DNA of 64,000 nucleotides, from assembly GCA_032595685.2 (NCBI GenBank), contig CP159373.1, positions 1,695,001-1,759,000 on the forward strand, written 5' to 3'. Of the stretch, positions 3,735-20,395 are shown one piece after another; positions within the stretch are counted from its first letter, which is position 1, and every line of letters starts with the position of its first letter. The notes under the pieces were generated by a model. That model saw only the letters and a list, made by a program, of their open reading frames with translations. It did not search any database and was not told the origin of the DNA. A program made the position numbers and the translations under genes. The DNA comes from Candidatus Electrothrix aestuarii. Lineage in GTDB: Bacteria > Desulfobacterota > Desulfobulbia > Desulfobulbales > Desulfobulbaceae.

Positions 3735-4373
3735 TCAGTATCCTCCGACTCTTCCGTAACCTGTTATGTTTTTCAATCTGCGGATTGAATGGTCAAGTTC
3801 TTGTATTTGTCCCTCCAGTTGTCCTATTTGGTTTTGATAAATCCTTCGCTGATTGGGATTAGGTGTCCGTTGTGCTGCCTGACGTTCTCGCGCAAGAACG
3901 GACAATAACCCGTTATATGCATTCTGTGCTTTCCTTAGCTCTTCCCCAGCTACCCCGCGACGATCTATATTTCTCCTGATATCTCTTTCGTATTGCTCAA
4001 TATCCCTTTTCAATCGGCGATTATAGTTGACCATGACAGCAATTTGTTGTTGCAGGCTGTTGATGGTCTGCTTCCTTACAAGATGACTCTGATCCATTTG
4101 ATCAATATGATTTACATGCTGGTTTCCTATAATGGCTCCCACTCCCAAGCCAAGAAGTCCACCGCCAGCGGCGCATGCAGCTCTGTTATCCTTACACGCC
4201 GCAGCACCAATTCCTGCTCCAATTCCTCCACTTATAGCCATAGGTTCCGCATACATCCTATGCTGTCTCGACATGTTCGCACAAGCGGATAAAGAGAACG
4301 CCGCTACAAAAAAAATAATATTTTTACAATAAGTTCCTCTGGTCCCCGATGCCATGCCAACAGGTAGTTTCAT
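3735..4373 (-). CDS. Glycine-zipper lipoprotein with coiled coil (last gene of cassette)
   Basis: The 212-residue protein has a hydrophobic N-terminal segment ending in LSAC, a good lipobox, so it is probably lipid-anchored in the envelope. Next comes a glycine-rich stretch (AISGGIGAGIGAAAC, then GGGLLGLGVGAIIG) of the glycine-zipper kind that can insert in or pack against membranes. The remainder is charged, helical and probably coiled coil, rich in Q, R and N, with a repeated RDIxQYERDIRR character. The start ATG overlaps the stop of the upstream gene as ATGA (4370-4373), indicating translational coupling. Exact function unknown. The context (last gene of the tubulin-like/vWA cassette) suggests an envelope structural part. 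The long basic leader before the hydrophobic core (MKLPVGMASGTRGTYCKN) leaves the start slightly uncertain. Confidence 0.75.
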   Translation of the reverse strand: MKLPVGMASGTRGTYCKNIIFFVAAFSLSACANMSRQHRMYAEPMAISGGIGAGIGAAACKDNRAACAAGGGLLGLGVGAIIGNQHVNHIDQMDQSHLVRKQTINSLQQQIAVMVNYNRRLKRDIEQYERDIRRNIDRRGVAGEELRKAQNAYNGLLSVLARERQAAQRTPNPNQRRIYQNQIGQLEGQIQELDHSIRRLKNITGYGRVGGY

Positions 4374-4810
4374 CGCAACTTCTCCTTTAATTTATCGAAT
4401 TCTTTTGTCCTTTCTTCTAACTCTTGCTCTTTATCCTCGATTTTTCTTTTGAATTCATTTAGTTCTTTTTCTACCTTGCGCAGTTCTTTTTTACGTTCCT
4501 TGAGCTGTCTTTTTTCTGCATACAGTTTATTTATTTTGTTTTCTTTCTCTTTCTTGCGCCGTTTCAGATCATTAATCTCTCCCTCTATTTCAGTTATCTG
4601 TTTTTTCAGTTCATCCCGTTGAGCTTCTCGCTCCGGTATTTCTGTCGATAATCTTTCGGTTTTACTCAAAAGTTCCTGTATTTTTTTTTTCGCTTGTACC
4701 TCTCTTACGGTCTTCTCTTCTAAAGTATCGTAGTATGTACAGCCTGATACGGTCATCGCAACGAGAAGTGACCAACTGGTCGCAAACAAAATTCTTTTGA
4801 TGATACGCAT
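4370..4810 (-). CDS. Small coiled-coil lipoprotein
   Basis: The 146-residue protein starts with a basic-hydrophobic signal ending in VSGC, a lipobox, and is otherwise almost entirely charged heptad-like sequence (KKKIQELLSKTERL through the C-terminus, very rich in E and K). It should be a lipid-anchored, long helical rod, in shape comparable to Lpp-like or spacer lipoproteins but with no detectable homology to them. AAGGAG sits six bases before ATG 4810. It follows the SUMF1-like/coiled-coil gene by 19 bp and overlaps the next lipoprotein gene by four bases. Its length as a straight helix would be enough to span much of the periplasm. Function inferred only from shape and context. Confidence 0.78.
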   Translation of the reverse strand: MRIIKRILFATSWSLLVAMTVSGCTYYDTLEEKTVREVQAKKKIQELLSKTERLSTEIPEREAQRDELKKQITEIEGEINDLKRRKKEKENKINKLYAEKRQLKERKKELRKVEKELNEFKRKIEDKEQELEERTKEFDKLKEKLR

Positions 4811-4829
4811 TGTTTTCTCCTTAACCTGA

Positions 4830-7061
4830 TTACTGAAATTCGGGTTGATCTATAAAACTATCAATAAGGTCATCCGGCAGGCGAGAACGACCATTGCGTA
4901 CCTGCCTGACATGACGTTCGATAAGGCCGAGGGACTTCCGCTGGATAGGGGAAAGAAATTGCTGACCATCCTGTGTTTTGCATTCACCGGAAAACAAGTT
5001 TTCCTTTTCGCCCTTTCGTAGCCACTCGGATACGTCCTGTTTGACTTCTGGAAATAAGGCAGGCTGGGTTTGAGCCATTTTTACCACCAGTTGCCAGTAG
5101 TCATGAATATATTGACAAGCCTGAGAATATGCTTTTTCCGCCTGTATCTGTGAAGCAGAATCTTTTTCTGGAAGATAAATCACTTGCCGTTTGACAAGTT
5201 CCTCATAGGCATTATAGGCATTGGTATATGCCTGTCGCATTAAAGCTTCAAGGTAGCGTTTCTCCGCTATCTTGGCAAAATTGGCATTTTCAGCAATTTT
5301 CTTTTCACTGTCAGATAGTCTGCGTTCAAGATCCTCAACCGTCTGCTGTTTTTGCTTCAAGTTCTGCTCAAGCTCTGCAATCTTCTGTTGTTTCCGGTTT
5401 CCTTCGTCGATAAAAAATCGTTCTTTCACCTGCTTTTTTGATAGATTCAGCTCAGAAGCTTGATTTTCCTTCTGCAATTTATCAAAATCTTGTTGTAATT
5501 TCTCCCATTCTTTGAGGGAAGGCAGAACAGCAATCTGTTGTTTCAGGTCTTTTATCTGCTGTCTCTGTTTGCTGACCTCACTTTCATTCTCAAAAAAAGG
5601 TAGCGGGCCGGAATCAATTGCTATCTTTTTTAATCTCACCAGGTCTTCTCTTAAACCTTGTTTTTCCACTTCAGCCTGCCTGAGTTTCTGTTGCAATGCC
5701 TTTGCCACATCAGGAGTCGGTCTTGCCTTGAGTTGCTTCTGCAAATCATGAATTTGTGCTTCCAGTTCTTTCTTACGGTTCTGGAGTTCCAAGTTATTTT
5801 GTTCTTTTTCCGAAAGTGCCACTTGGTCCTTGTTGCGTAGCCTCAGTAAGCGAGAAATTTCAGATTTTTTGTCCTCTATGTCTGTTTTGAATCTATCTGC
5901 TTCTCTTTTGGAATATTCCCTGCAATTGTCTTCCGCCTGTTGCGCCGGACTAGAGTGCCCAGTCAAACCCGGCTTTGGTAAGGCAAGGGAGCTTACATAG
6001 TTATCAAACTCCTTATCCAGCTCCCGGCCCAATTTTCCTGTTGAAGCAATTGAGGTGCTTAATGCAAGACGAAAACCAACCTTGGAGGGATGACGTAATT
6101 TTCCTTGCTGATCATGACTTGCAAACTCGGTACGATGAGCAACGTTAAAATCACCAGAAAAATCGCTATAGTTATTTCCACGGATAACAAATTGTCCAAA
6201 GCGGCCCTGTTGGTATTCCGGACTAAATAAGCTGACCGTGAGTTCCTCAACATTACCTAGCATATCTTTCAGCCCGACTGGATTTGCAAGCTCAATACTA
6301 CCGCATTTCCTCATAGTCCCCGACGAATTGCCCTTATGCCATTCATGTTTTCCAAGATCCTCGCTATAGGGATGCGGACGGTCAAAAACGTTCTTATTAA
6401 CTTCAATGCCTCCCCGTGCGGCAAAAGCCCATTCCGCTTCTGTGGGCAGACGACAAAAGGCTTTTGCATTATAAAGTTTCGGCAACCTGCTGCTCTGCTC
6501 CTGCAACATCCATGTATTTAATCCCTCAATGAAGCGATAAATTTCAGCCACTGTTGCGCCTGTTTGCGGTAATAAAGGATTATCCGAACCTTGAGCTGAC
6601 AGTGACTTTCCTTTCTGTCGATTCATCCAGCGCATAATGCTGTTCCACTGACCACGCGATACCTCTGTTTCTCCCAGATAATAGAGCCAGTCGGATTTCC
6701 CGTTCTTCCGTTTTCCGATAAAGGAACCAGAAAGCATGGTGTCCACCAGCCGTTCTTTATATGACTGACTCCCTTCGCGGGAACCCAGCGTAATTTTTTT
6801 CGAGGCAAAAAAGTTTTTTTCACTGATACCCAGATGAACCGCCTTGAAGCGCATCTCTGGCCCGTCATAAGGCAATTTGATGGTTACAGTGTCCGGGGCA
6901 TTCTGGGCTGCAAGGGGATTAGAGCAGAGCAGGAGCAGGAGGGCGGCTACGAGCAGAGGTAGGGTGGTACGAATAAAAGATGATATGAGGCGACCGTTGA
7001 TTTTCGCTGTTGAAATTACAACATTATCTTCTTTCTTAATATTACTCATAAATTTATCCAT
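4830..7061 (-). CDS. Secreted/anchored SUMF1-like domain protein with long coiled coil
   Basis: A 743-residue product from ATG 7061; a TTG three codons earlier would overlap the previous stop. Order of parts: cytoplasmic tail and hydrophobic segment at about 32-52 (signal or anchor), then a formylglycine-generating-enzyme-fold (FGE-sulfatase, SUMF1) domain at about 55-350 with YYLGETEVSRGQW, CRLPTEAEWAFAARGG, DMLGNVEELT and VGFRLALS. Next is a long heptad-rich coiled coil (about 375-600), then a C-terminal domain (about 602-743) shared with the neighbouring 7067-7807 product. The position where true FGE enzymes carry their active-site cysteines reads FVIRGNNYSD without cysteine, so it is probably a binding or structural module. 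It starts 5 bp after the previous gene stops. A paralogous SUMF1-like domain is encoded at 14543-15583. Confidence 0.82.
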   Translation of the reverse strand: MDKFMSNIKKEDNVVISTAKINGRLISSFIRTTLPLLVAALLLLLCSNPLAAQNAPDTVTIKLPYDGPEMRFKAVHLGISEKNFFASKKITLGSREGSQSYKERLVDTMLSGSFIGKRKNGKSDWLYYLGETEVSRGQWNSIMRWMNRQKGKSLSAQGSDNPLLPQTGATVAEIYRFIEGLNTWMLQEQSSRLPKLYNAKAFCRLPTEAEWAFAARGGIEVNKNVFDRPHPYSEDLGKHEWHKGNSSGTMRKCGSIELANPVGLKDMLGNVEELTVSLFSPEYQQGRFGQFVIRGNNYSDFSGDFNVAHRTEFASHDQQGKLRHPSKVGFRLALSTSIASTGKLGRELDKEFDNYVSSLALPKPGLTGHSSPAQQAEDNCREYSKREADRFKTDIEDKKSEISRLLRLRNKDQVALSEKEQNNLELQNRKKELEAQIHDLQKQLKARPTPDVAKALQQKLRQAEVEKQGLREDLVRLKKIAIDSGPLPFFENESEVSKQRQQIKDLKQQIAVLPSLKEWEKLQQDFDKLQKENQASELNLSKKQVKERFFIDEGNRKQQKIAELEQNLKQKQQTVEDLERRLSDSEKKIAENANFAKIAEKRYLEALMRQAYTNAYNAYEELVKRQVIYLPEKDSASQIQAEKAYSQACQYIHDYWQLVVKMAQTQPALFPEVKQDVSEWLRKGEKENLFSGECKTQDGQQFLSPIQRKSLGLIERHVRQVRNGRSRLPDDLIDSFIDQPEFQ

Positions 7062-7066
7062 CTGTT

Positions 7067-7807
7067 TCAATTGTCAAATTCTTGGGACTCAAGTTGTTCC
7101 ATAAGGGTATTGATCAGATTTTTTGGCAACTGCGAGTTACCGGCACGTACTTGGGCAACGTGAAGCTCAATAAGATCAAGGGACTTGCGTCGGATGGGGG
7201 AAAGAAGCAGCGGTTCGTTTCCTGTCCTGCATTCCTCGGGGCAAATATTTTTTTCTTCGCCTTCTTTGAGCCAGGAAGCTACTTTTTCCTTCACCTCTGG
7301 CAACAGCCCCTCTTGGGTTTCAGTAGCTATTTCAATCACTATCTGCCAGTAGTCATGAAGTAAATAACAGGCTTGGGAATATGCCGTTGCCGCCTTCTCC
7401 TCTGAATGATATTTACTTGTTTTATCAAGATAGATATAATTCCGTCTAGCGAGTCCTGCATAGGCTTGAAAGGCATTGGCACTGGCAATCCGCATCAGCT
7501 TCTCCAAGTAGTGTTTTTCAAATTCTATCTTCTTATCTTCAAGCTTTTCTATTTTGTACGAATTTATATCATAAAGAATTTTAAATGTATCAAGATATAA
7601 ATGGATTGCCACGGGAACGAAAATTATACCAGCAATGCCATACTTAATAATAATACGAATCCATGATCTATTGAAATGTCTTGCCTCAGCTTCCATCTTC
7701 TTCGCTTCGGCTTCGATCTTTTCTGCTTCGGCAATATTCTTTCTGATTTCCGACTGAATTCTTTCCTGTTCAAGTTCTCGTAATACTCTTTCTCTTAACG
7801 TTGTCAT
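7067..7807 (-). CDS. Membrane coiled-coil protein with shared C-terminal domain
   Basis: A 246-residue protein; ATG 7807 is preferred over the adjacent GTG 7810, with AAGGA upstream. The N-terminus is a charged coiled coil rich in E, A and K (IAEAEKIEAEAKKMEAEARH), followed by one membrane segment (about 50-70). A second helix leads into a C-terminal domain of about 148 residues, closely similar to the end of the 4830-7061 product. Shared landmarks are YLE-LMR, AYSQAC, HDYWQ, PEVK--V--WL--GE, LSPI-RKSL-LIE-HV-QVR and LP--LI. The two adjacent genes probably make partner proteins that meet through this domain. It is not a family I can name. 15 bp separate it from the permease gene upstream. Confidence 0.78.
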   Translation of the reverse strand: MTTLRERVLRELEQERIQSEIRKNIAEAEKIEAEAKKMEAEARHFNRSWIRIIIKYGIAGIIFVPVAIHLYLDTFKILYDINSYKIEKLEDKKIEFEKHYLEKLMRIASANAFQAYAGLARRNYIYLDKTSKYHSEEKAATAYSQACYLLHDYWQIVIEIATETQEGLLPEVKEKVASWLKEGEEKNICPEECRTGNEPLLLSPIRRKSLDLIELHVAQVRAGNSQLPKNLINTLMEQLESQEFDN

Positions 7808-7825
7808 CACAGCGTTCCTTTCATT

Positions 7826-9667
7826 CTATTCTCGAATATACTCGCCCGGTTCAATGCGCGTCACAGCAACGGCGGCAATCAATGAAGCCAGAGAAGCTGT
7901 TCCGTAAAGACCTGCAATAAGGTATATAATCTGTTTCCTGTCCAGGCGGGTGAGTGAATCAGCAGCACCGATCACGTTTTTAAACAGCACGTCTGTCTCA
8001 TAACTGAATATTTCATAAGCAAGAAATGCACTTGCAAGGGCCGCACTGACAAGAACGAGGCTCTTTATAAACGGAAAGAGCACCAGTGAGACAGGATGCA
8101 ATCCGTAGAGTTGCAAATAGGCTATATCTTTTCGCTTGCGTTGAATTCCGGCATAGACGTTCGCCAGGATGGCAAAAAAGCCGGAAACCCCGGAAACCGC
8201 AAGAATGAGCAGGTACAATTTCTCCATATAGCCTGCCAATTGCCGAATATTACGTACCTCGGCAATTCTGGAAACCGGTTCCATCAGGGCCTCGCTGGCC
8301 TGCTTTTTTCCTTGCTCGCGGATAACATCCACAAGTTTTTCCAGATCATCAATAGTTTTCGCATAAGCGCGAAAAAAACGTGTTCCCTGCTCAACCGGCC
8401 TGAATTCCCCGGCCTGCGGATCATACATTGCGTTCTGACGGCGGGCGGCGTTCATCTTACCGGCAAAATCTGGATCGGTTGCGATAGAACCCTGGGGAAC
8501 GCTTTCCGAGGGATGAATTCGCACCGGAATTATCAATTTTTCTTCGCCGGTCGTTGTAGAAAAAGCCAGTTCCGCCTCGGGATAGGGGAAGAAAATCTTG
8601 TCATCCTGGGATATCCAAACATGCCGGGCAGAATCTGTTGCAACAGGCGGTTTGCTTTTTTCTTTCGGAAGAAGGCAAGAAAGACGTAACGGTATGTTTT
8701 TTCTATCAGACCGCAACGTCACCTTGAAGTTATCAATATAGGGAATTGTTTCAAGTTGATACCCCATCTCGTGGTGCCGATTGACAAGCGAGGTGAAATT
8801 ATCCTCAAATACCCTGCTTTTGATCGGTTTCCAGAGCCGAGCCTGCTGTTCCGCAGGATACCCCCAGGAAGATATCTCATTATCAAAACGTTCAGGCAAT
8901 TGACTGAACCCTATTCCGCGCCCTATCATGGTACGATATTCGGCATCCGAAGGAACTTTGTCCAGAAGGGTGACAATGCCGTCATATTCAGGGGTAAGTA
9001 TTGTTCCGCCTCCGGGAAGTCCAAGTTCCGGGATAGCCCCGCCCCTGCGCCATTGATGGAGCCGCTTGAACAACCGGGCATCCAGCCATATTTTACTGTC
9101 CTGACTGGCCGTTATAGGTAATACACCGGATACCTTCATGTCCACGGGCCTGCGTTCTTCCTGACCTGTAGAACGAATCAAGGTCAGGGTGATGGAATCG
9201 CCTTGTTTTTTTCCGAGGGCCTTTGCCAGTGGGGTTGACAGGACAAGCTCGTCTTGCCAGCTTGTCAACGTGATATGATTCTCCTTGAGGAGCGGATCAA
9301 TGTTGCTTGTGGGCAGGGCATTGACCGGATCATTCTTTCCCTCAACATCCAGGAGCAGAAACGCGGTGGGTGACTTGATAAGGGCGGCAGTCTGCTTGCG
9401 TAAGTCTGCAAGCCAGACATCATCAAGCGAGGTCTCCCATTTCGGTAGAACCAGACGACTGACCGGGTCTTTTTGTAGATCATCAAGCATATTGCCGATA
9501 ATTCCGCCCTGAAGACCGAGCAGAATAAACAGGGGGGCGAACACCGCCCCCAGAGCAAGGACCATGCAGAGCGAGAGTATCCATTCAAAACGCAGATCGG
9601 CAAAGACCAGGCCGATTACATGCAGAAAATCCAAGCCGTTGGGCTGATTTTTTGTTTTCACATTCAC
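7826..9667 (-). CDS. FtsX-like ABC transporter permease
   Basis: A 613-residue inner-membrane protein in the general plan of FtsX/MacB/LolC-type permeases: one transmembrane segment near the N-terminus (about 30-55), a large extracytoplasmic domain of about 400 residues, and three C-terminal segments. The first of these is the FtsX-like stretch LILAVSGVSGFFAILANVYAGIQRKRKDIAYLQLYG split over about 485-520, where the RKRKDIAYLQLYG loop is the typical coupling helix. Such permeases work with a cytosolic ATPase to transmit force to periplasmic partners rather than to move solutes through a pore. The likely partner ATPase is encoded at 11485-12201. The start is GTG 9667, with a poor ribosome-binding site. 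A diverged relic of another permease start lies just upstream at 9755-9860. Confidence 0.85.
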   Translation of the reverse strand: MNVKTKNQPNGLDFLHVIGLVFADLRFEWILSLCMVLALGAVFAPLFILLGLQGGIIGNMLDDLQKDPVSRLVLPKWETSLDDVWLADLRKQTAALIKSPTAFLLLDVEGKNDPVNALPTSNIDPLLKENHITLTSWQDELVLSTPLAKALGKKQGDSITLTLIRSTGQEERRPVDMKVSGVLPITASQDSKIWLDARLFKRLHQWRRGGAIPELGLPGGGTILTPEYDGIVTLLDKVPSDAEYRTMIGRGIGFSQLPERFDNEISSWGYPAEQQARLWKPIKSRVFEDNFTSLVNRHHEMGYQLETIPYIDNFKVTLRSDRKNIPLRLSCLLPKEKSKPPVATDSARHVWISQDDKIFFPYPEAELAFSTTTGEEKLIIPVRIHPSESVPQGSIATDPDFAGKMNAARRQNAMYDPQAGEFRPVEQGTRFFRAYAKTIDDLEKLVDVIREQGKKQASEALMEPVSRIAEVRNIRQLAGYMEKLYLLILAVSGVSGFFAILANVYAGIQRKRKDIAYLQLYGLHPVSLVLFPFIKSLVLVSAALASAFLAYEIFSYETDVLFKNVIGAADSLTRLDRKQIIYLIAGLYGTASLASLIAAVAVTRIEPGEYIRE

Positions 9668-9754
9668 AAGATAAACATTGTACCGCCCCTCCAGGGCGTT
9701 AAATAAAGGAAAGAACCCTGCAAGGGGTAAACAACCTCAGCTCGGGGGACACCC

Positions 9755-9860
9755 AGAGCGAGAGTATCCATTCAAAACGCAGGTCGGCAAAGGCGAGGCC
9801 GACGATATGCAAAAAGTCTAAGCTGTTGGAAGTTTTTTTTGGTTACACGTTTACGAATCT
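9755..9860 (-). pseudogene. Relic: 5' end of a second permease gene
   Basis: Read on the minus strand, about 75 bases align closely with the first codons of the permease gene at 7826-9667 and translate to LDFLHIVGLAFADLRFEWIL, against LDFLHVIGLVFADLRFEWIL in the intact gene. The reading frame is broken just before this by a stop (TAA after GTG) and the homology ends after the first membrane segment begins. The differences are largely synonymous or conservative. This suggests a diverged paralogue that was later truncated rather than a fresh copy. Confidence 0.75.
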
Positions 9861-9868
9861 GGCGATCA

Positions 9869-10975
9869 TTAAAATATTATCCCAAGACTGACGTATGCTT
9901 TGAGCAGTAGGTCTTCATTGATATCGCCCGTGTCATCTGAATCGTGAACACTGAAGCCTCGATAGTCTCCTGAGAGAAAGGCATCAAAAACAATATGTTT
10001 TGAAGTGCCAAAGAACTCTCTGTAGCCGATTTCCACTTTGGGATTTAAATAGATTATGTTTTGATAGTCTTCACGATCACCATAGGAGCGAATAAGATCA
10101 GACATTTTATATTTATCTGTCAACTCAACCTCTCCATATCCAATCTTGAGTGAAAAATCTAACCTTGCTCCCCTTTTATCTAAAGGGGTAATTCTTTCTA
10201 TAAGCAAGCCGTAGCCTTTAAAACGTGAATAAAAAATGTAGTCTGTTTTTATATCGTTGTATAATTCCCTGTTTAGACTTTCATCAATATTGTATGGCTT
10301 TTGGTATTCCGAGTAAGAAAGACCAATAAATATATCAGCATTTTTCGCCAGACTATAACTACCTCTGTTCACCTTATAAAGAAGTGAGTAATCATGAAAG
10401 ACTGTTTCATGGTACAGAGTATCTCCTTTCTGGAATCTCTGATAATTTTCTCCTGAATTCGGTGCATAATACAAATCTGTTTCTGAGCTTAATTTTGAAA
10501 CAAATCGTTCTGTTTCGTAACGAAATGCAATGGGAAAGAAAGCCTGCACCATCCCTACGAAATAATGATAATATTCATTCATCTCATGATGAGAATATAT
10601 TACCTCCTCATCAGAAAAATTGTTTTCTGTCAATGAAGTTTCAAAACGCATTCGGGGTATTGAAAAGTATTTGCTGAGCCCCCCTATTGTTTGTGATTGA
10701 AGCTCAATCCAAGCAAGATTTAATCCCTGAGTTTCTACTTCTGTTCCTGAAATTTTTTCAGGATTCCAGTGAGTATAGGTATATCCGGCTTCAAGAAGAA
10801 ATAACCCGCTAAAAGGAGAAGGGCCCTGACTCTGTGCAGGCGGCGGAAGGTCCTTTCCGGGAGAAGGAGCCTGTTCCGTTGACTGAGCGACTGATGCACC
10901 AAGGCATGAGGTAAACAAAAAAAAACCTGCCAATATTGATGACTTACTGAATTTGTTTTTTTTTCTGGAAATCAT
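9869..10975 (-). CDS. Outer-membrane beta-barrel-like protein
   Basis: A 368-residue protein with an N-terminal signal peptide (basic start, core AGFFLFTSCLGASVAQ) and a proline-rich linker. The body consists of alternating aromatic/polar strands (for example LLEAGYTYTHW, FPIAFRYETERF, LDFSLKIGYGEVEL) and a terminal strand ending YVSLGIIF. A C-terminal phenylalanine preceded by alternating hydrophobics is the standard signal for outer-membrane barrel insertion. AAGGAG lies six bases before ATG 10975. I cannot assign a family. The gene looks more AT-rich than its neighbours and is bounded by inverted-repeat elements on one side and the truncated permease on the other, so it may have been inserted into the cassette. 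Confidence 0.75.
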   Translation of the reverse strand: MISRKKNKFSKSSILAGFFLFTSCLGASVAQSTEQAPSPGKDLPPPAQSQGPSPFSGLFLLEAGYTYTHWNPEKISGTEVETQGLNLAWIELQSQTIGGLSKYFSIPRMRFETSLTENNFSDEEVIYSHHEMNEYYHYFVGMVQAFFPIAFRYETERFVSKLSSETDLYYAPNSGENYQRFQKGDTLYHETVFHDYSLLYKVNRGSYSLAKNADIFIGLSYSEYQKPYNIDESLNRELYNDIKTDYIFYSRFKGYGLLIERITPLDKRGARLDFSLKIGYGEVELTDKYKMSDLIRSYGDREDYQNIIYLNPKVEIGYREFFGTSKHIVFDAFLSGDYRGFSVHDSDDTGDINEDLLLKAYVSLGIIF

Positions 10976-11017
10976 TTTTTCTCCTTTAATGAGTTTGTTG
11001 AATTTTAAAAATCCTGA

Positions 11018-11201
11018 TTATAACGGATTCTGTTGATTTTTATTTCGCATAGAAAACAAGCTGTTGTAAATGCAATTAAGTCCAGATGAATCTGTTTTAG
11101 ACGCCCCTGGAGTGATATTCGTCGAAAGAAAAATGCACTATCAGCAGTTCTGTTAATTTATAGAAAACAGTCAGTTGACGTATCAACAGAATCCGTTATA
11201 A
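11018..11201. mobile_element. 184-bp inverted-repeat element (MITE-like)
   Basis: TTATAACGGATTCTGTTGAT at 11018-11037 is repeated exactly in reverse complement at 11182-11201. The interior has no coding capacity. Perfect 20-bp ends around a short non-coding core fit a non-autonomous transposable element. The outermost bases TTATAA make a TA duplication possible but not provable here. Confidence 0.6.
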
Positions 11202-11270
11202 ACAGTAAAAATAGACTTAATTAACAGCCTTTTTAATACCCAAAGTGCTTCTCTAGGCGGATATATTTTT

Positions 11271-11439: not shown

Positions 11440-11484
11440 ATATTTTTTTAATTCTATCTCCGGGTAATACCCCGAGAATCCTAT

Positions 11485-12242: not shown

Positions 12243-12272
12243 GGTAGGGGCACAGCATGCTGTGCCCCTACC
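12243..12272. repeat. Perfect 30-bp palindromic repeat
   Basis: GGTAGGGGCACAGCA and its exact reverse complement abut each other. Related palindromes with the GTAGGGRCAC core occur at 53828-53855, and a partial one at 55399-55421. The position between two cassette genes suggests an mRNA-level role or a REP-like element. Confidence 0.75.
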
Positions 12273-12276
12273 CTGA

Positions 12277-14559
12277 TTATGGTAGCTGATTCAGTTCAAC
12301 ACCGACAACACGATCCCTGTCCCGAGCACCGGCACTGAGCTTTTTCCAAACCGTTGTATCACCTCGCTTGCGCATAAGATCTTCATAATGCAGGAGTTTG
12401 TTGTTCATTGCGCGAATGAAACGCTGAACCCGATCCGGGTTATCAAAATCACTCCGGTCAGCCGCCATGATATCGCTTTTGTAGGGAAGTTCGCTGATCC
12501 CCAGAGGCACTGCAAAGGCATCCCGGAACGTAACCGCTGTCGGGTCCACCATAGTGAACTTTGTGTTTTGAGAAACCAACTCAAAAAAGTCACGGGTGGT
12601 TCCGCCGTCGCCGCGCAAGGCCCTTTCACCGATTGCTTTGAGCTCCCGAACCCTGGCGGTCAGCTCTTCCAGTTCGGTTTCGGTGAGCAGGATCATCGGA
12701 GTTAATGCCTCGCGGTCCGGGTTGGTCAGCACCTTGTCGCAGACCCAGCCGGTTATATCCTGGGCAGGAAGAGTGTTGTCGGAATACATCAAGGTTGCCT
12801 GTTGAAAGATGAGTTCACTGAGAGACCCCGGTTCCGCTGACGGCAACGGCTTTCCGGAGCGTGCGTATTCCTGTACATCAGGAAGGCGTTTCAATGTTTC
12901 CTGGAATTCATTTGCTATGAGTTGACGGAACTGAGCTGCTCCGGCATCTATGCTGCGCCAATAGTTCTGTGCCTGTGCTGTTCCTTTGATTCCCTCGGAA
13001 ATAGAAGAAAGTTCGGCATACTGTTTCCATGACTCTTTGTCCCTGTTCCTGATATGAAAGGCAAACAAACGAATTTTTCTGGTTCTGGCTTTATCGCGCA
13101 GGATTGTCGTTTTATTCACACGGTCTTCCTCTCTGCCCGGAGCATCTCCCACCAAAAAAATGATTTTGATAGCTTCCTGCCGCCATTGGCTGCTGTCTAA
13201 GGCGGTCTCCACTCCGTCAAAAACAGCTTCAGCAAAATCGTCCCCCTGCTCGGAGTTCTCATCTATGTTAACCTGCTCCAAGGCATCAACAAACTCAGAA
13301 GCCAGCAGGGTACGGGAGGTGAATTCTTTGGTTGATTTATTGCCGTTATCCTGATATCCGATACTCCTATCCTGATATCCGATAAAACCGAAGCGTAGCC
13401 CGTCGTCCGTATGTTGGTCGGCGAATGCCTCAGTAGCTGCCAGCACGTTTTCCAGATACGGTCGCATGGAATGCGTAGTGTCCATGACAAAGATAATGTC
13501 AATGGCCGCAGAATGAGTCCTGCTCTCGGATGCACTGTTTCTCGTTCGGGCTGCAACTTCCAGCAAGCGGGCGAACTTGCCGTCAATGAAGAGATCGTCT
13601 TTGCCGCCGCTGGCGTGAAAATCCAGAACCGGGTACATAATCATCTGTTCCTGTCCGGCACCGACTTTGGGTTCCATAGCCACAACACCGCTTGCCCCGC
13701 CTCTGCCGTTTTCCAACTGTTCCCGAATACTTTGCAGCTCCCGCCGCCGAACATCCTTCGCCTCTTGCATCAGGTCAAGGATCGGTTGAGGGGGGTCGAA
13801 AAAAAGTGAAGGTTCACGATTATAGGGATTGGTAAAGCGCATCACCACGGCTCGCCGCCAAGGAATAACCTGGTCTTCGGCAACCCAGCCGATGGGTTTC
13901 GGTGACCAGTTGCGCGGCTTGATCTTGGGAACATATTCTTCAGTCACCTGATACCAACGTGTTCCGCTGTTATCTTCTATGCTGCCAAGAACACCAAAGG
14001 CTTCGTATTGCTGCACGTTATCGCGAGCGACAGCACTATATGAGTTTGGCTCTGCATATAGTGTTGCACCTTTCAGGGTAAGAATCCGTGAAATTTCGGT
14101 TTTACGAGGATCAGGAGGGTAGCCATCCCACCAGGTTGTTTCTCCTGTATCGGGAACTTTTACCTCACGGTGAACACCTTTCACCAGATTTTCCTGCCTC
14201 TTTATTGCAAATTCTTTTCCTATTTCTTCCGAAGTTTTATTTATCATCTTCGGATTGTTAGACATCCTTTCAAAAACAGCTATGCGATCATGGTTCTCAG
14301 CTTCCGCAAGCCTGCGTTCCTCGTCAGAGCAGTTATATTTATTGACGAGCAAAAGTCCACCAAGTCCTTCACCGATACAATGCCTAGGACTTCTGAGTAG
14401 TTGTTCAATTTTACCTCGTCTTGCCATCATTCTTTCACACAACTCTATTCCGTAACATCCATTTTGGGCAAACACAGCATCTGCTATAAGATGCAAGAAT
14501 AGTAGGATGGCAAGAATAATTTGACAAGATAACAGCATCTTCTTATCTATCAGAATCAT
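12277..14559 (-). CDS. Secreted von Willebrand factor A domain protein with SH3-like region
   Basis: A 760-residue protein with a signal peptide or N-terminal anchor (about 8-31, ending DAVFAQ). A cysteine-containing helical region (35-130) is followed by an SH3-like stretch (about 157-235: TLKGATLYAEPNSYSAVARD through GWVAEDQVIPWR). The vWA domain spans about 350-545. Its metal-adhesion site reads DTTHS (residues 360-364), with QGDDFAEAV and LVGDAP supplying the later ligands. vWA domains bind protein partners through a divalent metal. A helical C-terminal region of about 200 residues follows. AAGGAG precedes ATG 14559, which overlaps the end of the upstream SUMF1-like gene by 17 bp. Linkage of vWA proteins to FtsZ/tubulin-superfamily proteins has been noted before by genome-context studies, as I recall, which fits this neighbourhood. 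Confidence 0.85.
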   Translation of the reverse strand: MILIDKKMLLSCQIILAILLFLHLIADAVFAQNGCYGIELCERMMARRGKIEQLLRSPRHCIGEGLGGLLLVNKYNCSDEERRLAEAENHDRIAVFERMSNNPKMINKTSEEIGKEFAIKRQENLVKGVHREVKVPDTGETTWWDGYPPDPRKTEISRILTLKGATLYAEPNSYSAVARDNVQQYEAFGVLGSIEDNSGTRWYQVTEEYVPKIKPRNWSPKPIGWVAEDQVIPWRRAVVMRFTNPYNREPSLFFDPPQPILDLMQEAKDVRRRELQSIREQLENGRGGASGVVAMEPKVGAGQEQMIMYPVLDFHASGGKDDLFIDGKFARLLEVAARTRNSASESRTHSAAIDIIFVMDTTHSMRPYLENVLAATEAFADQHTDDGLRFGFIGYQDRSIGYQDNGNKSTKEFTSRTLLASEFVDALEQVNIDENSEQGDDFAEAVFDGVETALDSSQWRQEAIKIIFLVGDAPGREEDRVNKTTILRDKARTRKIRLFAFHIRNRDKESWKQYAELSSISEGIKGTAQAQNYWRSIDAGAAQFRQLIANEFQETLKRLPDVQEYARSGKPLPSAEPGSLSELIFQQATLMYSDNTLPAQDITGWVCDKVLTNPDREALTPMILLTETELEELTARVRELKAIGERALRGDGGTTRDFFELVSQNTKFTMVDPTAVTFRDAFAVPLGISELPYKSDIMAADRSDFDNPDRVQRFIRAMNNKLLHYEDLMRKRGDTTVWKKLSAGARDRDRVVGVELNQLP

Positions 14560-15583
14560 CTTTTTCTCCTTGAATTTTTACACCATAAACTTTTTCCAAT
14601 ATCACACTAGGGTTGCGGTCTTGTTGATAGTCTCCGTCTGCATTTAAAATATCACCGCCAATACTTGCGCTGACAGAAGTGGTCAAGACGAGTCTGAAAC
14701 CAACATTTTTAGGGCGGCGAAGCTTGCCATTTTCGGTATGGGAAGCGAATTCTGTACGATGAAGAACTGTAAAATCCTCACTGGCATCAGAATAATTATT
14801 ACCGCAAATAACAAACTGTCCGAAGCGTCCCCGTTGATATTCAGGGCTGAATAAGCTGATTGTGAGTTCCTCCACATTTCCCAGCATATCTTTCAATCCT
14901 ATTTTGTTCGGTTTTAATTGCCCACATTGATTTATTTTTCCTCCTGAGTTTCCTTTGTACCATTCATATTTTCCAAGGTGCTGCTTTCCGCCATAGGGAT
15001 TCCAGCAATTAAAATATTTATTCTTAATGCCTTCTTGGGCAGCAAACACCCATTCCGCCTCTGTAGGCAAGCGACAATGTGCCTTTGCATATCCAAACGT
15101 TGGAAGTTCTCCTTCTTGCCTTTGCAGTATCCAGCTATTCAGTGATTCTATAAACTGGAAGACTTCTGCATAGGTTATTTCCGTTTTGGGATATTTCGTT
15201 TTATCTACAGGAGATAACAAACTCTGTTCTCTTCTGTCCGGCCATTGCATAATGCTATGCCACTGACTGCGTTGTACCTCTGTTTCGCCAAGATAATAAA
15301 GACAATCCGATTGACCGTTTCGTTTGCCAAAAAATCCCCCGGAAATAGTTGCTCTCCCAGGTTGTTTTTTATAATTCGGTGTGTTCTCATAAGACCCGAG
15401 TTCAATTTCACGAGATGCAAAACGACAGTCCGGTGTTCCTGTCAGACCCAAATAGACGGCATGAAAACGCATCTGAGAGTGATCAGGTAATGTTATGGTT
15501 ACGGTGTCAGGTGCCTCCTGTGCCAGCAGAACAGGAGAGAAGAGACAGCTCAATATTATTGTGAAAACGGTTGTTTTATACAC
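14543..15583 (-). CDS. Secreted SUMF1-like (FGE-sulfatase fold) protein
   Basis: A 346-residue protein starting at GTG 15583, with a signal peptide ending LLAQ followed by EAPDTVTITLP, nearly the same mature start as the 4830-7061 product (NAPDTVTIKLP). Family motifs are CLYYLGETEVQRSQW, CRLPTEAEWVFAAQEG, DMLGNVEELTISLFSPEYQ and NVGFRLVL. In true formylglycine-generating enzymes the C-terminal motif carries catalytic cysteines. Here the matching segment FVICGNNYSD has only one, which is not conserved in the paralogue, so sulfatase-type activation is unlikely. Many such domains act as binding modules. It sits 11 bp after the zinc-ribbon gene and overlaps the vWA gene by 17 bp, indicating tight coupling. 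Confidence 0.83.
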   Translation of the reverse strand: MYKTTVFTIILSCLFSPVLLAQEAPDTVTITLPDHSQMRFHAVYLGLTGTPDCRFASREIELGSYENTPNYKKQPGRATISGGFFGKRNGQSDCLYYLGETEVQRSQWHSIMQWPDRREQSLLSPVDKTKYPKTEITYAEVFQFIESLNSWILQRQEGELPTFGYAKAHCRLPTEAEWVFAAQEGIKNKYFNCWNPYGGKQHLGKYEWYKGNSGGKINQCGQLKPNKIGLKDMLGNVEELTISLFSPEYQRGRFGQFVICGNNYSDASEDFTVLHRTEFASHTENGKLRRPKNVGFRLVLTTSVSASIGGDILNADGDYQQDRNPSVILEKVYGVKIQGEKDDSDR

Positions 15584-15594
15584 AGGAACGGAAG

Positions 15595-16296
15595 TTATTT
15601 ATTGTTATCTTGATATCTCCTTGATTCATCCTCAAGAAGATCTAATATCCACCAAGGATCTGCCGGTTCAGATTCATCCTGTTTTGGCTCTACATCCTTT
15701 TTCTTTACAATCAGACGAATAGTAACCGATTCGTTGTTTGGATCATTCGTTTGAAATTGAAGCATTCCTTCCCGTGTATCGCCGCCAATCGAAGAATCAA
15801 AAACAACCAGTAAGCTTACGGGGTTTCCGGGAACTACTTCTAATTCCTGTCTTTGGGAAATAAACTGAGCAGGAGAGGCTCTGATTTTCCTGATAAGCAA
15901 TTTCTCTTCGCCTTTGTTGCTGATCAATATGCTTCCTTTCGCAGTTCCATCATCTGCTATGGAAAAGACCAGTGTCGCCGGTACCACTTCGAAAGATGGG
16001 TTAGATTTTTTTTGAAACATGGGAAGTAGAACAAACCAGACAAGTGCAATAGCTCCAAGGACTCCACCTGCGATCATTAATGATATTTTTTTAGGTACTT
16101 TTCCCCAGCTTCCAGATCCTTCAATAGGAACCAGTTTCCGCTCGCAAGGCTTCCCAGACACAGTTCTTCCAGGACATTTTGCTCCGCTTCCGTCCATGCT
16201 CGGGATAGCTTCTTCGACGGAAATCGAACGATTGGCTTGAGCAAAGGTACAAGGATCACCCCCAAACTCATTTTCACATCGATAAAAAGAAGGCAT
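15595..16296 (-). CDS. Membrane protein: zinc-ribbon-like head, one TM segment, Ig-like tail
   Basis: A 233-residue protein. ATG 16296 is chosen because GAGAGGA precedes it; a TTG six codons earlier lacks support. The cytoplasmic N-terminus has four spaced cysteines (YRCEN, DPCTF, AKCPGR, KPCER), suggesting metal binding. One membrane segment lies at about 74-95 (KISLMIAGGVLGAIALVWFV). The C-terminal part contains the pattern LISNKGEEKLLIRKI and LQFQTNDPNNESVTIRL, typical of ASPM/SPD-2/Hydin-type immunoglobulin-like domains, which bind other proteins. Such a protein could link the cytoplasmic tubulin-like product (encoded 14 bp upstream) to the periplasmic vWA and SUMF1-like proteins. That link is inference. 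Confidence 0.72.
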   Translation of the reverse strand: MPSFYRCENEFGGDPCTFAQANRSISVEEAIPSMDGSGAKCPGRTVSGKPCERKLVPIEGSGSWGKVPKKISLMIAGGVLGAIALVWFVLLPMFQKKSNPSFEVVPATLVFSIADDGTAKGSILISNKGEEKLLIRKIRASPAQFISQRQELEVVPGNPVSLLVVFDSSIGGDTREGMLQFQTNDPNNESVTIRLIVKKKDVEPKQDESEPADPWWILDLLEDESRRYQDNNK

Positions 16297-16310
16297 ATTC
16301 TTTATTCCTC

Positions 16311-19300
16311 TCAAACAAGTTCTTCAGTAAGACGATGCCATTGCTCAATGGCATCTTTTACGCTTTCCTTAAAAAGGATGAAAGTCTCGTCATCCCGCTT
16401 TTTATGAGAGAGTAGGAAAGCGTCATTTCTGATTTTTTTCAGGTCTTCTTCAAGATTAGGTATTTTATCACCTTCTTTACACCTCTCAACGACCAAGGAC
16501 TCAACAGCGTCTAAGCAATTCTCGGCAAACTGCGTTAAATAAAGAGAGTGCAACATAAAGGTTTCAAATGAGATACCGTTATCCAGTGCTTTAATTTTTT
16601 CTAGGAGTTCAGTTGTAGTATACATTCCGCTTTCCACCATATCTCCTCCCGTGCTATGAGCTTCTTCTGTTCCAAAAACAATCTGCTCGTCGGCTTTTTC
16701 TCCCCCATACATCAGCCCTAAGACAGTTGCCAAAAGCACTGTGGAAAATCGTTCTGTAAGGACCTCAGTCCGTCCCTGCTTCATCAAATTAGGCAGGCGT
16801 GGACGATGGCTTTCCGTATGCACTTCAAAATACGCTCTCCGGGCGTCCTTTTCCTTGAGTTGATCCAAACGTTTGCGATATTCTTCCTGAAGACCATGTA
16901 CGGTATGGGTAAAACGGGCTGGAAAAAAGAAAGCCACGGACAAAATACTTATCTCGCTTGAATTACGGTCTTCTGGAATATCCTGACAATAGGTTTCCAC
17001 TACCCCGCCACCTTTCAGGTCGCCTGTAATAGACTCAATAGTCTGCCGGAGATCTTGAGAAAATTGTTGGGGCACAGCCTTGCACTTGGGAATAAAGACG
17101 CAACGACGAAGCACCGGTGCCCTGACATTGCTTCCCAGATCCATCGACTCTTCATTGGCCTCAAACGAAACCATAGGCATTGCCTTGCTCATAATTTCAC
17201 GCAGCCAATGGAGCATCTCGTCGTTCACCTGCCCGCCGTAGTCGTTGTACAATTTCTGGATGATATTCTGTCCAAAGATACCGTGAAAATCCTTGTCTTC
17301 TTCCCGAATCCTTCGATGCGCTTCCCCGGCACTGCGGTCCGCCACCCGACGCAGCTCATCAACCAGCGGGCCGCCCACCTGCTCGGAATTATCCACTGGC
17401 ATGATTTCTGTGTAGGCAGCAAACTCTGCCCGATTCTGTCGCAGTTGGGCCAGGGCTTCGGTGGTGGTCAGTGCATGATGATCCTGCACCGATTTATTGC
17501 ACTCAAAGCGTTCGTGGATCATTGCATTGACATATTTGGCATCAACAAGATAATCAACCTCTTCCTTGCTGCTTTCCTCTTTGCTTTCCACAATCCGGGA
17601 ATGCATTTCTGCTTCAAAATTTTTCGCCACCAGCAGCAGTCTGGATTTAAACAGTACCACCTGTCGATTGAGCGATTTGAGTTCAGAGGTCAGGGCAGCA
17701 CAAAATTCCTGTCCGTATTGGGCGGCCAAAGAGATAGTGCGCCAATAATAATACCGGGTGGAGGCTTCTCTATACTGGTTAAACAGGCTGCCCGGTTTAT
17801 TTCCGATTATACCGGAGAAACGACCGCATTTCAGATATTCCCTTTTCGTTTCCTCACGACGATGGTCAGACTCATCTATCTGTTTTTTAGCTTTTTCTGC
17901 AAGTTCGCCAAAATGCTCGCTGTCCTGAGCAATGCGATCAAGGAGAATATCCAAAGCATCAGGAAGATAATAGAGCACATATTTTTGATCACCGCGCTCC
18001 ATGCCCTCCAGCAGAGCCGTCTCTACAATGGCACGGATATCCCGGGCACGAGATCGTAAGGTCATGGGATCCCTGCGGTTGGCAAAGTAATTTTCCACCC
18101 CGCCGCCAGCCCCGACAGCACGGAAGCCGTTTTCCCAAAACGCTTCAGCCCGTCTGTCGAAATCAGTCAACCATCGTTGCCGTGCTTCAAAAGCATCACC
18201 AAGTTGTTCCTTTACCCTGGTTTCCTGCCGCACCAGTTCTTCCCGCCACTCGATTTCATAGCTTGGATGCGTTGCCTGACCAATTGCCTCCTCAACCCGA
18301 TCAAGATAGAGATGTTCTCTGGTGACCCGCCAGTTTTCACGGCGGGTATCAACAAAATCATTGGCGGAAAAACTGCGTGCATTGGGGAGAAAACAACCGT
18401 CCCAATTATTGTACAGAATCTTCAGAACCACCTGCCGCCCAAAGGAGTAGGCCAATTTTTCCCGGATTTCTTTTTCCGGGATAGCTATCCGCTGCACACC
18501 GTAGCTGATAAAGGCCGTGGAACGGTTGCCGCCGTCAACATCGGCAGGATACTGATCCCGGTCCTCCATAGTCAGGGCCTGGCGAAGCTCATTGGGCATA
18601 TCGCCCATCTGGCGAACAGAGAGCTGAAAAATAAACTCAGCAGCATTTTCTATCTGCTGTTCCAGAGCAACGCTGGTGCCCCGTTCTGTTGTTTCTGAAA
18701 TCAGCGCAACAGAACGGAAGGTATTTTTCAGCTGTATTCGTTCCGGTCGGGCCGGTCCCATGATGTCCCAGGGGGTATAATTGCCTAAGCGAAAGGCGTT
18801 CAGCTCAGTCAATGCGCCGTACTGATTTGCATAAAAATTGCCGGTATTAATCGTGCCCACATCCTTGGCCGTGACAAAACCGTGGATATAGACGTTGAAA
18901 TCACCGGGCTGGTTTTGAAGATAACGTTGCAATTGGGCCACAACATCCAGCACGGTTCCGCTGCCGGTTCCTGCTGCCAGAGTACAGGCAATATGGATTT
19001 CTGCCCCAACATTGCCCCCTTTTCCGCTCAATTCGTTGATGCGGTTAGAGATAGCGGAAATAACGTTTTCAATATTCTTTCCATTGGCCAAAGCAAGCCG
19101 TCCCATGCGACGAATCTGGTTGCAGCCCGCAGGCCCGGAACAGCCGCGCGTAATATCACGGACAAATTCTATCTCGTCTTTCACCCAGGGTTCGACACCA
19201 GTATATCGTTGCAGGTTATCAAGAATCTTATGTATTCCTGTGGGACTGACCAGCACCTTTTCCCGGTCACCAAGACTCAGGGTCTCCCCGAAAACCCGCC

Positions 19301-19535
19301 ATTTCCGGGCACGTTCTCCCTGTCCTTCAAGATCAGCCTCATTGGAATCCATGCTCAGGGTGGCGATTTTGGAACTCACCACCTGACCGCCCAGTTTTTC
19401 TTCAAAAGTATATATTTCCGGAGGCATACCCGTGTTGCCTCGTGATCGCCACTCAATATAGAGGCTTTTTTTCAGCTCACGAACAACTGCGCAGCCTGTA
19501 CCGCCAAGACCAATTAAGAGAAAGTTTTTTGCCAT
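16311..19535 (-). CDS. Large tubulin/FtsZ-superfamily protein (Tubulin_2-like)
   Basis: A 1074-residue cytoplasmic protein. The N-terminal nucleotide-binding half has the loop LLIGLGGTG at 6-14 and the tubulin signature as LAAGTGSGTVLD (186-197), a variant of the GGGTGSG phosphate loop. GFVTAKDVGT and FYANQYGALTELN follow, at positions where FtsZ and tubulin contact the base. About 600 further residues, helical and charged, extend beyond the tubulin core with no match that I recognise. The family known as tubulin-like (Tubulin_2) has this length and these motifs. Expected properties are GTP binding and possibly filament formation, neither demonstrable from sequence. It begins 41 bp after the membrane-protein gene. 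No plasmid or phage partition gene (TubR/TubY) is nearby, so a TubZ role is unlikely. Confidence 0.85.
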   Translation of the reverse strand: MAKNFLLIGLGGTGCAVVRELKKSLYIEWRSRGNTGMPPEIYTFEEKLGGQVVSSKIATLSMDSNEADLEGQGERARKWRVFGETLSLGDREKVLVSPTGIHKILDNLQRYTGVEPWVKDEIEFVRDITRGCSGPAGCNQIRRMGRLALANGKNIENVISAISNRINELSGKGGNVGAEIHIACTLAAGTGSGTVLDVVAQLQRYLQNQPGDFNVYIHGFVTAKDVGTINTGNFYANQYGALTELNAFRLGNYTPWDIMGPARPERIQLKNTFRSVALISETTERGTSVALEQQIENAAEFIFQLSVRQMGDMPNELRQALTMEDRDQYPADVDGGNRSTAFISYGVQRIAIPEKEIREKLAYSFGRQVVLKILYNNWDGCFLPNARSFSANDFVDTRRENWRVTREHLYLDRVEEAIGQATHPSYEIEWREELVRQETRVKEQLGDAFEARQRWLTDFDRRAEAFWENGFRAVGAGGGVENYFANRRDPMTLRSRARDIRAIVETALLEGMERGDQKYVLYYLPDALDILLDRIAQDSEHFGELAEKAKKQIDESDHRREETKREYLKCGRFSGIIGNKPGSLFNQYREASTRYYYWRTISLAAQYGQEFCAALTSELKSLNRQVVLFKSRLLLVAKNFEAEMHSRIVESKEESSKEEVDYLVDAKYVNAMIHERFECNKSVQDHHALTTTEALAQLRQNRAEFAAYTEIMPVDNSEQVGGPLVDELRRVADRSAGEAHRRIREEDKDFHGIFGQNIIQKLYNDYGGQVNDEMLHWLREIMSKAMPMVSFEANEESMDLGSNVRAPVLRRCVFIPKCKAVPQQFSQDLRQTIESITGDLKGGGVVETYCQDIPEDRNSSEISILSVAFFFPARFTHTVHGLQEEYRKRLDQLKEKDARRAYFEVHTESHRPRLPNLMKQGRTEVLTERFSTVLLATVLGLMYGGEKADEQIVFGTEEAHSTGGDMVESGMYTTTELLEKIKALDNGISFETFMLHSLYLTQFAENCLDAVESLVVERCKEGDKIPNLEEDLKKIRNDAFLLSHKKRDDETFILFKESVKDAIEQWHRLTEELV

Positions 19536-19576
19536 ATCAATTACCCTAAGTATATGATGAAGTGTTATTTGAAATA

Positions 19577-20395
19577 TTATCGCACTTTAATATCCGCAAG
19601 AGCTGAACGTATCAGCAAAGAAAATATAACCCCCTGTATCAGGAGAAAAATCAGGACAAGTACAGTCCGGGAAATAAGCATAACCCGTGGAATCTGTCCG
19701 ATCATACTTTGCCGCATCACATTTTTTGCCAGCTGAACAGCCTCCATAACCGGATAAGTTTTCTCTCCGGTTTCTGAAGAGCTGGAAAAAAACTGTTCGA
19801 TATCTTTATAAATCGCCTGGGCTGTCTCTTTCGCGTAGACCCGGAGAATTTTGCTCAACAGAGGATGATGCACGGTAAAGTGTTTCACCGCTTCTTCGGC
19901 GTAGACCCGTGCAGCCACCAGCTTGGACTCCTCATGAGTAGTAGGTATCATGACCTGTTGGCCGGAGTCAGGATGCGGCTTGCCGGTAAAATTCTCCAGC
20001 CGGTTTCCTGCCGCATCGCGAAGTTCGTACACCGCCTCGTAGGCTTTTCGAAAGGTGTCGTCACTCCATTGCGTATCAACTTCAAGGGCCTTCTCCCAGC
20101 TTGTCACGATGCGTTCCGCTACATCGCCGGTGAAACGAAAGGCGAAGAAGAGCAGGGTGCAACACAGAGTGATTATCCCGGCAGTTCCGCAAAAAACATA
20201 ACGCTGCGGCTTGGAAAAATATCGGCGGTTAAAATTCAGGGCCACATAATAAGTCAGCCAACCAACAAGCACGGCAAGGACAATGCCGACAGCGCAGGCG
20301 ATAAAGAATTCGTTGCGGGCACTGCTCCATAACTGAACGATGAGGCTGCTAAGGAGAAGGGAGAGGTCGCTGAGGTGAGAGATTGTTTGGTTCAT
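19577..20395 (-). CDS. Integral membrane protein, first gene of the cassette
   Basis: A 272-residue protein not recognised as a family member. Two hydrophobic segments lie near the N-terminus (about 33-56 and 66-88) and one near the C-terminus (about 240-262). Between them is a helical, soluble domain of about 150 residues (KALEVDTQWSDDTFRKAYEA onwards), probably in the periplasm or cytoplasm depending on topology. The start ATG 20395 has only a weak ribosome-binding site. It is the most upstream gene of the twelve-gene minus-strand series and lies 41 bp before the tubulin-like gene, so it is a candidate membrane anchor for that protein. The function is unknown. Confidence 0.72.
   Translation of the reverse strand: MNQTISHLSDLSLLLSSLIVQLWSSARNEFFIACAVGIVLAVLVGWLTYYVALNFNRRYFSKPQRYVFCGTAGIITLCCTLLFFAFRFTGDVAERIVTSWEKALEVDTQWSDDTFRKAYEAVYELRDAAGNRLENFTGKPHPDSGQQVMIPTTHEESKLVAARVYAEEAVKHFTVHHPLLSKILRVYAKETAQAIYKDIEQFFSSSSETGEKTYPVMEAVQLAKNVMRQSMIGQIPRVMLISRTVLVLIFLLIQGVIFSLLIRSALADIKVR

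Follow-up and report, generated by a model that had tools for sequence, protein, structure and literature searches.

Long tubulin-family proteins of the FtsZl1 type, with an N-terminal FtsZ-like domain and a coiled-coil middle, are known from operons that also contain a linked vWA gene and membrane proteins (Makarova and Koonin 2010, PMC2875224). A second described system, the TagQRST-PpkA block of Pseudomonas aeruginosa, consists of the outer-membrane lipoprotein TagQ, the periplasmic TagR, the TagS/TagT ABC transporter, and the kinase PpkA, whose vWA domain is extracellular (PMC11881912, PMC6657622, PMC3224232). The vWA domain is the sensor domain of PpkA, and TagR acts on the C-terminal part of the kinase (PMC3224232). 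The block senses mechanical or chemical outer-membrane damage and is needed for the local assembly of the type VI secretion system (T6SS) afterwards (PMC11881912, PMC6657622); Tag genes also lie beside SrfABC in oral Deltaproteobacteria, mostly without a T6SS (PMC3608642). Here we describe a twelve-gene cassette in a 64,000-nucleotide stretch of Candidatus Electrothrix aestuarii (contig CP159373.1, positions 1,695,001 to 1,759,000; the window), which by sequence comparison is made of two recurrent modules, one of each kind, and does not encode a single twelve-part machine. We propose, with a probability of roughly 0.5, that it is a trans-envelope signaling device in which a TagQRST-type sensor (module B) is coupled with a tubulin-family protein (module A).

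The cassette resembles the FtsZl1-vWA operons in its long FtsZ-like protein with a coiled-coil middle, its vWA gene, and its membrane proteins, and differs in adding an ABC ATPase, an FtsX-like permease, SUMF1 proteins, a zinc-ribbon transmembrane (TM) adaptor, and the membrane protein g1, none of which is named in the compared part of PMC2875224. FtsZl1-vWA operons and TagQRST are each known, and we found no description of their coupling, which is apparently new. In the open-access literature searched, no paper joins tubulin with TagT, TagS, and PpkA; the supplement of PMC2875224 lies outside that search, and an earlier mention is possible. A first-pass annotation had called the gene set undescribed, and this stands for the combination but not for the vWA/ABC/FtsX/SUMF1/lipoprotein half, which is a TagQRST-type sensor, known from T6SS clusters and seen beside SrfABC.

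Organization of the cassette

The genes are numbered g1 to g12 in the order of transcription on the minus strand (Table 1). All twelve of the open reading frames that the first-pass annotation placed at positions 3735 to 20395, running in one direction, were found, and the overlaps and short gaps that it described correspond to intergenic spacings of -17 to +75 bp. The exceptions surround g7, where the g6-g7 interval is 509 bp, with two miniature inverted-repeat transposable element (MITE) copies inside, and the g7-g8 interval is 201 bp. Pfam and NCBIfam searches verified the named families (Tubulin_2, vWA, two SUMF1/FGE proteins, and the ABC ATPase). The FtsX-like permease g8 has no Pfam match, yet its AlphaFold model (mean predicted local distance difference test score [pLDDT], 83) fits LolCDE, MacB, and FtsX. 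The domain said to be shared by a coiled-coil pair is the C-terminal domain of g9 and g10 (50.7% identity, 8e-44), and both predicted lipoproteins, g11 and g12, have a lipobox. The tubulin-like protein had been described as giant, but its 1074 amino acids (aa) are ordinary for the FtsZl1 family (~1000 aa).

Module A comprises g1 to g3, coding for a membrane protein, the FtsZl1/Tubulin_2 protein, and a zinc-ribbon TM protein. Module B comprises g5, g6, g8, g10, and the lipoprotein genes, coding for a vWA protein, an ABC ATPase, an FtsX-like permease, a SUMF1/FGE protein, and outer-membrane lipoproteins. The broader expectation of a conserved, recurrent gene set reaching from the cytoplasm to the outer membrane is thus borne out, as is the link of FtsZ/tubulin relatives with vWA proteins, a published theme (PMC2875224). 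The twelve genes do not all belong together, however, with g4 being a duplicate and g7 a singleton.

Module B and T6SS-linked envelope sensors

Each gene of the vWA-ABC-FtsX-SUMF1 block in a T6SS cluster has a homolog in module B, in the same order, and this block corresponds to the TagQRST/PpkA envelope sensor. A search of plasmid records identified a Tistrella mobilis T6SS cluster with the order tssJ-tssK-icmH-tssM-tagF-PP2C-kinase-vWA-ABC-FtsX-SUMF1, and a Leclercia cluster with the order SrfA-SrfB-SrfC-hypothetical-vWA-ABC-FtsX-SUMF1-lipoproteins. Profiles built from FtsZl1-linked proteins match the Tistrella and Leclercia proteins with E values of 4e-112 and 5e-134 (vWA), 1e-60 and 2e-57 (ABC), 2e-75 and 2e-86 (FtsX), and 2e-58 and 1e-72 (SUMF1), respectively. 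With g10 itself, phmmer gives 3e-19 to the T6SS-linked and 7e-30 to the Srf-linked SUMF1 protein, and a g12 profile gives 1e-17 to the lipoprotein of the Srf-linked module. The exported vWA protein g5 is the likely counterpart of the sensor part of PpkA, and g6 retains intact ATPase motifs (Walker A, signature, Walker B, and H-loop).

Like TagQRST-PpkA, the cassette codes for a vWA protein, an ABC ATPase, an FtsX-like permease, a SUMF1 protein, and a candidate TagQ-like lipoprotein, with the vWA-ABC-FtsX-SUMF1 order of the Tistrella cluster. Unlike TagQRST-PpkA, it has no kinase, phosphatase, Fha, or T6SS genes, and its output gene is FtsZl1. Its permease is also longer in the periplasmic part (613 aa in total, compared with 408 aa in the T6SS-linked permease).

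As judged from gene neighborhoods, the sensor block is also attached to other outputs, namely kinase/T6SS and SrfBC, and elsewhere stands alone. Of the loci found by an FtsX search in Desulfobacterota, 15 were compared, most with the full vWA-ABC-FtsX-SUMF1 block; SrfC adjoins in eight and SrfB too in seven of these, and the remainder have neither. The SrfABC clusters with Tag genes (PMC3608642, the Leclercia plasmid, and the Desulfobacterota loci) are like the cassette in placing a sensor block beside cytoplasmic output genes, but their output is SrfB/SrfC and that of the cassette is a tubulin. We note that such blocks in Desulfobacterota frequently have SrfB/SrfC as neighbors (L168, L170, L172 to L175, L178, and L179), and the stretches searched have no T6SS homologs. 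A search of SrfB against the Protein Data Bank (PDB) gave no match.

A permease model nearest to LolCDE and MacB, in an operon that encodes lipoproteins, could also fit a machine of the LolCDE/MacAB kind that exports its own lipoprotein cargo or works in efflux. We consider this very unlikely: the fold and topology of the permease are those of LolCDE, MacB, and FtsEX (type VII ABC systems), but its sequence is nearer to the T6SS-linked permeases and its partners differ. The FtsX profile reaches LolC at ~2e-9 over the last ~140 residues (the C-terminal TM part) only, compared with 2e-75 for the T6SS-linked permease, and g6 scores far below the LolD, MacB, and FtsE cut-offs (for LolD, 130 bits against 308), on which grounds membership of LolCDE or FtsEX was rejected. 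The vWA, SUMF1, and FtsZl1 genes would also be left unexplained.

Recurrence of the A-B coupling

FtsZl1 loci were picked by g2 similarity alone, giving 80 loci from named genomes and a Desulfobacterota sample, and module B lies within 10 kb of the FtsZl1 gene in eight of the 80. The rough chance expectation is ~0.03 of 80 loci, estimated from the 28 of 395 Desulfobacterota genomes (~7%) that have an FtsX-like match, however weak or strong, and from a 20-kb window in ~4 Mb. FtsZl1, g1, vWA, ABC, and FtsX genes are found together at ten distinct loci in three phyla. Modules A and B co-occur in Electrothrix, Solidesulfovibrio (L043, with g2 54% identical), two Verrucomicrobia (with module B divergently transcribed), two Akkermansiaceae, one Methylococcaceae, and one Chromatiaceae.

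These A-B loci occupy five places on the FtsZl1 (g2) tree, and the FtsX and vWA trees split the FtsZl1-linked modules into two or more groups, all trees being built by a quick method with some placements on long branches. On the FtsX and vWA trees the gammaproteobacterial FtsZl1-linked modules group with the Leclercia Srf-linked module, apart from the others. The separate groups suggest that the coupling arose or was exchanged more than once, with the modules probably joined at least twice independently.

Module A and a proposed model for signaling

The inner-membrane protein g1 has relatives at 21 loci in the FtsZl1 locus collection, each directly upstream of an FtsZl1 gene and nowhere else. 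The nucleotide-binding motifs of g2 are intact, with a T1-like GLGGTG at residue 9 and a T4-like AGTGSG at residue 188. A g2 profile gives marginal tubulin matches among PDB sequences, and the fold match came from the predicted structure: in the AlphaFold model (mean pLDDT, 84) the N-terminal ~370 residues match tubulins, followed by long helices at 521 to 568 and 580 to 646. The length and coiled-coil middle fit the FtsZl1 family, although the C-terminal part is a mixture of helix and strand, compared with mostly helical in that family.

By a strict pattern, at least 48 of 97 loci encode a zinc-ribbon TM protein directly after FtsZl1. Its periplasmic half is variable, being Ig-like in g3 and PstS/OmpA-like (by eye) in L028 and L032; at L067, L082, L099, and L120 the zinc ribbon and TM segment are joined to vWA in one polypeptide. 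Such fusions resemble PpkA, which joins kinase and vWA. The zinc ribbon of g3 is predicted to face the cytoplasm and, together with the four relatives that fuse the adaptor to the vWA sensor, this suggests g3 as the link between the modules. We note that in six Bacteroidota FtsZl1 loci (L073, L080, L089, L110, L112, and L119) the zinc-ribbon TM protein mostly adjoins FtsZl1, and a SUMF1-domain protein is encoded a few kilobases downstream without an ABC/FtsX module.

We propose the following scheme. Outer-membrane lipoprotein g12, and perhaps g11, would hold the SUMF1-domain proteins g10 and g4 in the periplasm. Upon disturbance of the envelope these would engage the exported vWA protein g5, and the g6/g8 ABC-FtsX pair would power or reset the complex across the inner membrane. 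The g3 protein may then pass the signal to FtsZl1 (g2), which would assemble with GTP at the membrane beside g1, probably as a local scaffold for envelope repair or remodeling. The identity of the modules, their recurrence and common order, and the presence of the same sensor on other outputs are established by the comparisons given here. Envelope damage or contact is the presumed signal, by analogy with P. aeruginosa, and the route through g3, the polymerization of FtsZl1 as the output, and the purpose of that output are likewise predicted. More tentatively, an outer-membrane-damage sensor may directly gate an inner-membrane tubulin-family polymer as a wound-response scaffold, in which case the sensor block would be a plug-in for several NTPase outputs (kinase/T6SS, SrfBC, and FtsZl1) and would constitute a new class of envelope-to-cytoskeleton signaling; we regard this as possible but doubtful.

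Several observations weigh against the coupled device. Most of the 80 loci have FtsZl1 and frequently the zinc-ribbon protein without module B, which is therefore not required for module A, and the two modules are transcribed divergently at L052 and L065. The homology to the Tag system was read through the Tistrella T6SS cluster, with the P. aeruginosa Tag sequences outside the comparison, and the match of the lipoprotein to TagQ is weak. In this cassette the periplasmic part of g3 is an Ig-like domain without a vWA fusion, g9 and g11 are host-specific parts that the mechanism does not account for, and the polymerization, the interactions, and the signal are each predicted.

It is also plausible, if rather unlikely, that the cassette is a machine for membrane remodeling or vesicle formation as Makarova and Koonin envisaged, in which FtsZl1 filaments pull or bend the inner membrane while the vWA, lipoprotein, and ABC proteins act as structural couplers and not as a sensor. 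Remodeling was proposed for operons in which FtsZl1 and vWA genes accompany membrane and OmpA-type proteins (PMC2875224), and the PstS-like and OmpA-type periplasmic parts of g3 relatives (by eye) are in keeping with it; the homology of module B to a signaling module with nontubulin outputs elsewhere argues against this reading.

Distribution and genomic island

The g2 gene is present in three of eight genomes of the genus, the window's own, G003 (87%), and G002 (80%); two of the five Electrothrix genomes without the cassette are single-contig. G002 and G003 share the gene order of the window for g1, g2, g3, the vWA, ABC, and FtsX genes, g9, the gene for the long SUMF1 protein, and g12, all of which are present in both. 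An upstream TPR gene of ~600 codons is complete in both and constitutes a thirteenth gene, of which the window has a remnant.

Because five of eight Electrothrix genomes lack it, the cassette is not the conductive-fiber machinery. The host is a cable bacterium and proteins are predicted for every compartment, and the first-pass annotation had raised an envelope-fiber role as a speculation should the host be filamentous or of the cable type; the idea that all twelve proteins form a fiber or envelope structure is, however, largely refuted by distribution, given the presence of the cassette in Verrucomicrobiota, Methylococcaceae, and Chromatiaceae and the lack of conservation of g4 and g7. Any cable-specific role is ruled out on the same grounds (three of eight in the genus, and carriage by unrelated bacteria). 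The giant-cable-bacterium genome paper mentions neither tubulin nor FtsZ.

Five Electrothrix genomes have VipB, the gene for the T6SS sheath, with neither of the other two cassette carriers among them. The host does have a VipB gene elsewhere (4.95 Mb), and module B could in principle be a sensor for the host's own T6SS that is co-transcribed with an unrelated tubulin operon. This is very unlikely because the VipB distribution does not fit, with a match in neither G002 nor G003 while several noncarriers have one, and the cassette has no kinase.

The cassette lies on an island, inserted at the 3' end of a carbonic-anhydrase gene. In three sister genomes the carbonic-anhydrase gene is directly beside the biotin-carboxylase gene, ~260 to 300 bp apart, and in the window ~19 kb separates them; in the sister G007 the site is empty, with 97.5% identity before the carbonic-anhydrase stop and 99% after it. 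A displaced carbonic-anhydrase 3' end at the far boundary is 95.7% identical to the G007 gene end, compared with 92.5% over the last 200 bp for the end of the current gene (3285 to 3484). The displaced copy is the closer one. Most simply, the incoming DNA would have carried its own carbonic-anhydrase end and shifted the old end beyond an insert of ~17 kb. Degenerate carbonic-anhydrase end fragments are at the corresponding place in G003 and G002, which suggests that this gene end is a recurrent insertion site. No integrase was seen in the insert. We note that a VanZ-family membrane protein is encoded at 20990 to 22192, between the displaced end and the biotin-carboxylase gene, and is absent at the site in G007, G004, and G006.

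The patchy presence, the island, and the empty site in a close sister would suit a conflict or defense system, an island-borne NTPase device that senses envelope attack and responds via FtsZl1, and the homologous T6SS sensor is one that triggers retaliation. Tubulin-family genes beside vWA and membrane-protein genes also occur in predicted GTPase-centered conflict systems (Kaur et al. 2020, PMC7159879), but those systems use DO-GTPase and GAP1 components, and neither these nor HSP70 are in the cassette. The cassette lacks nucleases, toxins, and variable effectors, and PADLOC picked out only g6, as a generic ATPase, and g10, through its coiled coil at chance level, with no set of a system model matched; a defense role seems improbable.

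Passenger genes and other features

The g4 protein is 58% identical (1e-108) to the N-terminal half of g10 and is missing from both congeners carrying the cassette, and g4 is most simply a lineage-specific duplicate of that half. Formylglycine-generating enzymes have paired catalytic cysteines in the C-terminal block; no cysteine pair was seen in that block of g4 or g10, so these SUMF1 proteins may be nonenzymatic. The g9 gene is kept in G002 and G003.

A Pfam search with g7 gave no match, and no relatives were found in 57 genomes, including both other carriers; the putative barrel was dropped as a core part for want of relatives. In G002 the ABC and FtsX genes are adjacent without g7, and in G003 (L026, 8337 to 9305) a gene for an Rpn-like protein (PD-(D/E)XK type, by eye) is at the junction held by g7 and the MITEs in the window. 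The two adjacent MITE-like elements differ, and the second has four 95 to 98% identical copies elsewhere in the genome. The 5' end of the ftsX-like gene is duplicated as a decayed sequence between g7 and g8 (Table 1), which hints at recombination between diverged operon copies.

Table 1. Coordinates of the cassette genes and associated features in the window
Feature	Position	Strand	Description
g12	3735..4373	-	Glycine-zipper-like lipoprotein, TagQ-like candidate; lipobox at residue 28; PF13488 weak, 0.07
g11	4370..4810	-	Coiled-coil lipoprotein; lipobox at residue 21
g10	4830..7070	-	Exported SUMF1/FGE protein with coiled coil (TagR-like); PF03781 2.9e-18
g9	7067..7810	-	Single-TM protein; C-terminal domain common with g10, 51% identity over 146 aa
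g8	7826..9667	-	FtsX-like permease (TagS-like), 1 + 3 TM, large periplasmic domain
Decayed second copy of ftsX-like 5' end	9711..9866	-	Between g7 and g8
g7	9869..10975	-	Putative outer-membrane barrel; passenger insertion between g6 and g8
Two MITE copies	11014-11205 and 11270-11440		24-bp terminal inverted repeats; in interval 10976..11484
g6	11485..12201	-	ABC ATPase (TagT-like); PF00005 7e-23
g5	12277..14559	-	Exported vWA protein; PF00092 1e-7; MIDAS-like DTTHS at residue 360
g4	14543..15583	-	SUMF1/FGE-domain protein; PF03781 9e-18
g3	15595..16314	-	N-terminal zinc ribbon, one TM, periplasmic HYDIN/ASH-type Ig domain; PF22544 E=1.5e-6
g2	16311..19535	-	FtsZl1/Tubulin_2, 1074 aa; PF13809 E=6.5e-42
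g1	19577..20395	-	Inner-membrane protein, 3 predicted TM; hydropathy peaks 30-48, 67-85, 244-262
Remnant of upstream TPR gene	20484..20570	-	From comparison with G002 and G003
Displaced carbonic-anhydrase 3' end (last ~92 bp)	20731..20824	+	Far boundary of island

Implications

FtsZl1 proteins are present in several bacterial phyla and in archaea, and their function is predicted, with no tested function in the literature searched. Their repeated link to a sensor with a known stimulus in P. aeruginosa, outer-membrane damage, provides a concrete, testable stimulus and readout. The comparisons also suggest that the TagQRST block may be a plug-in for envelope sensing in general and not an accessory of the T6SS.

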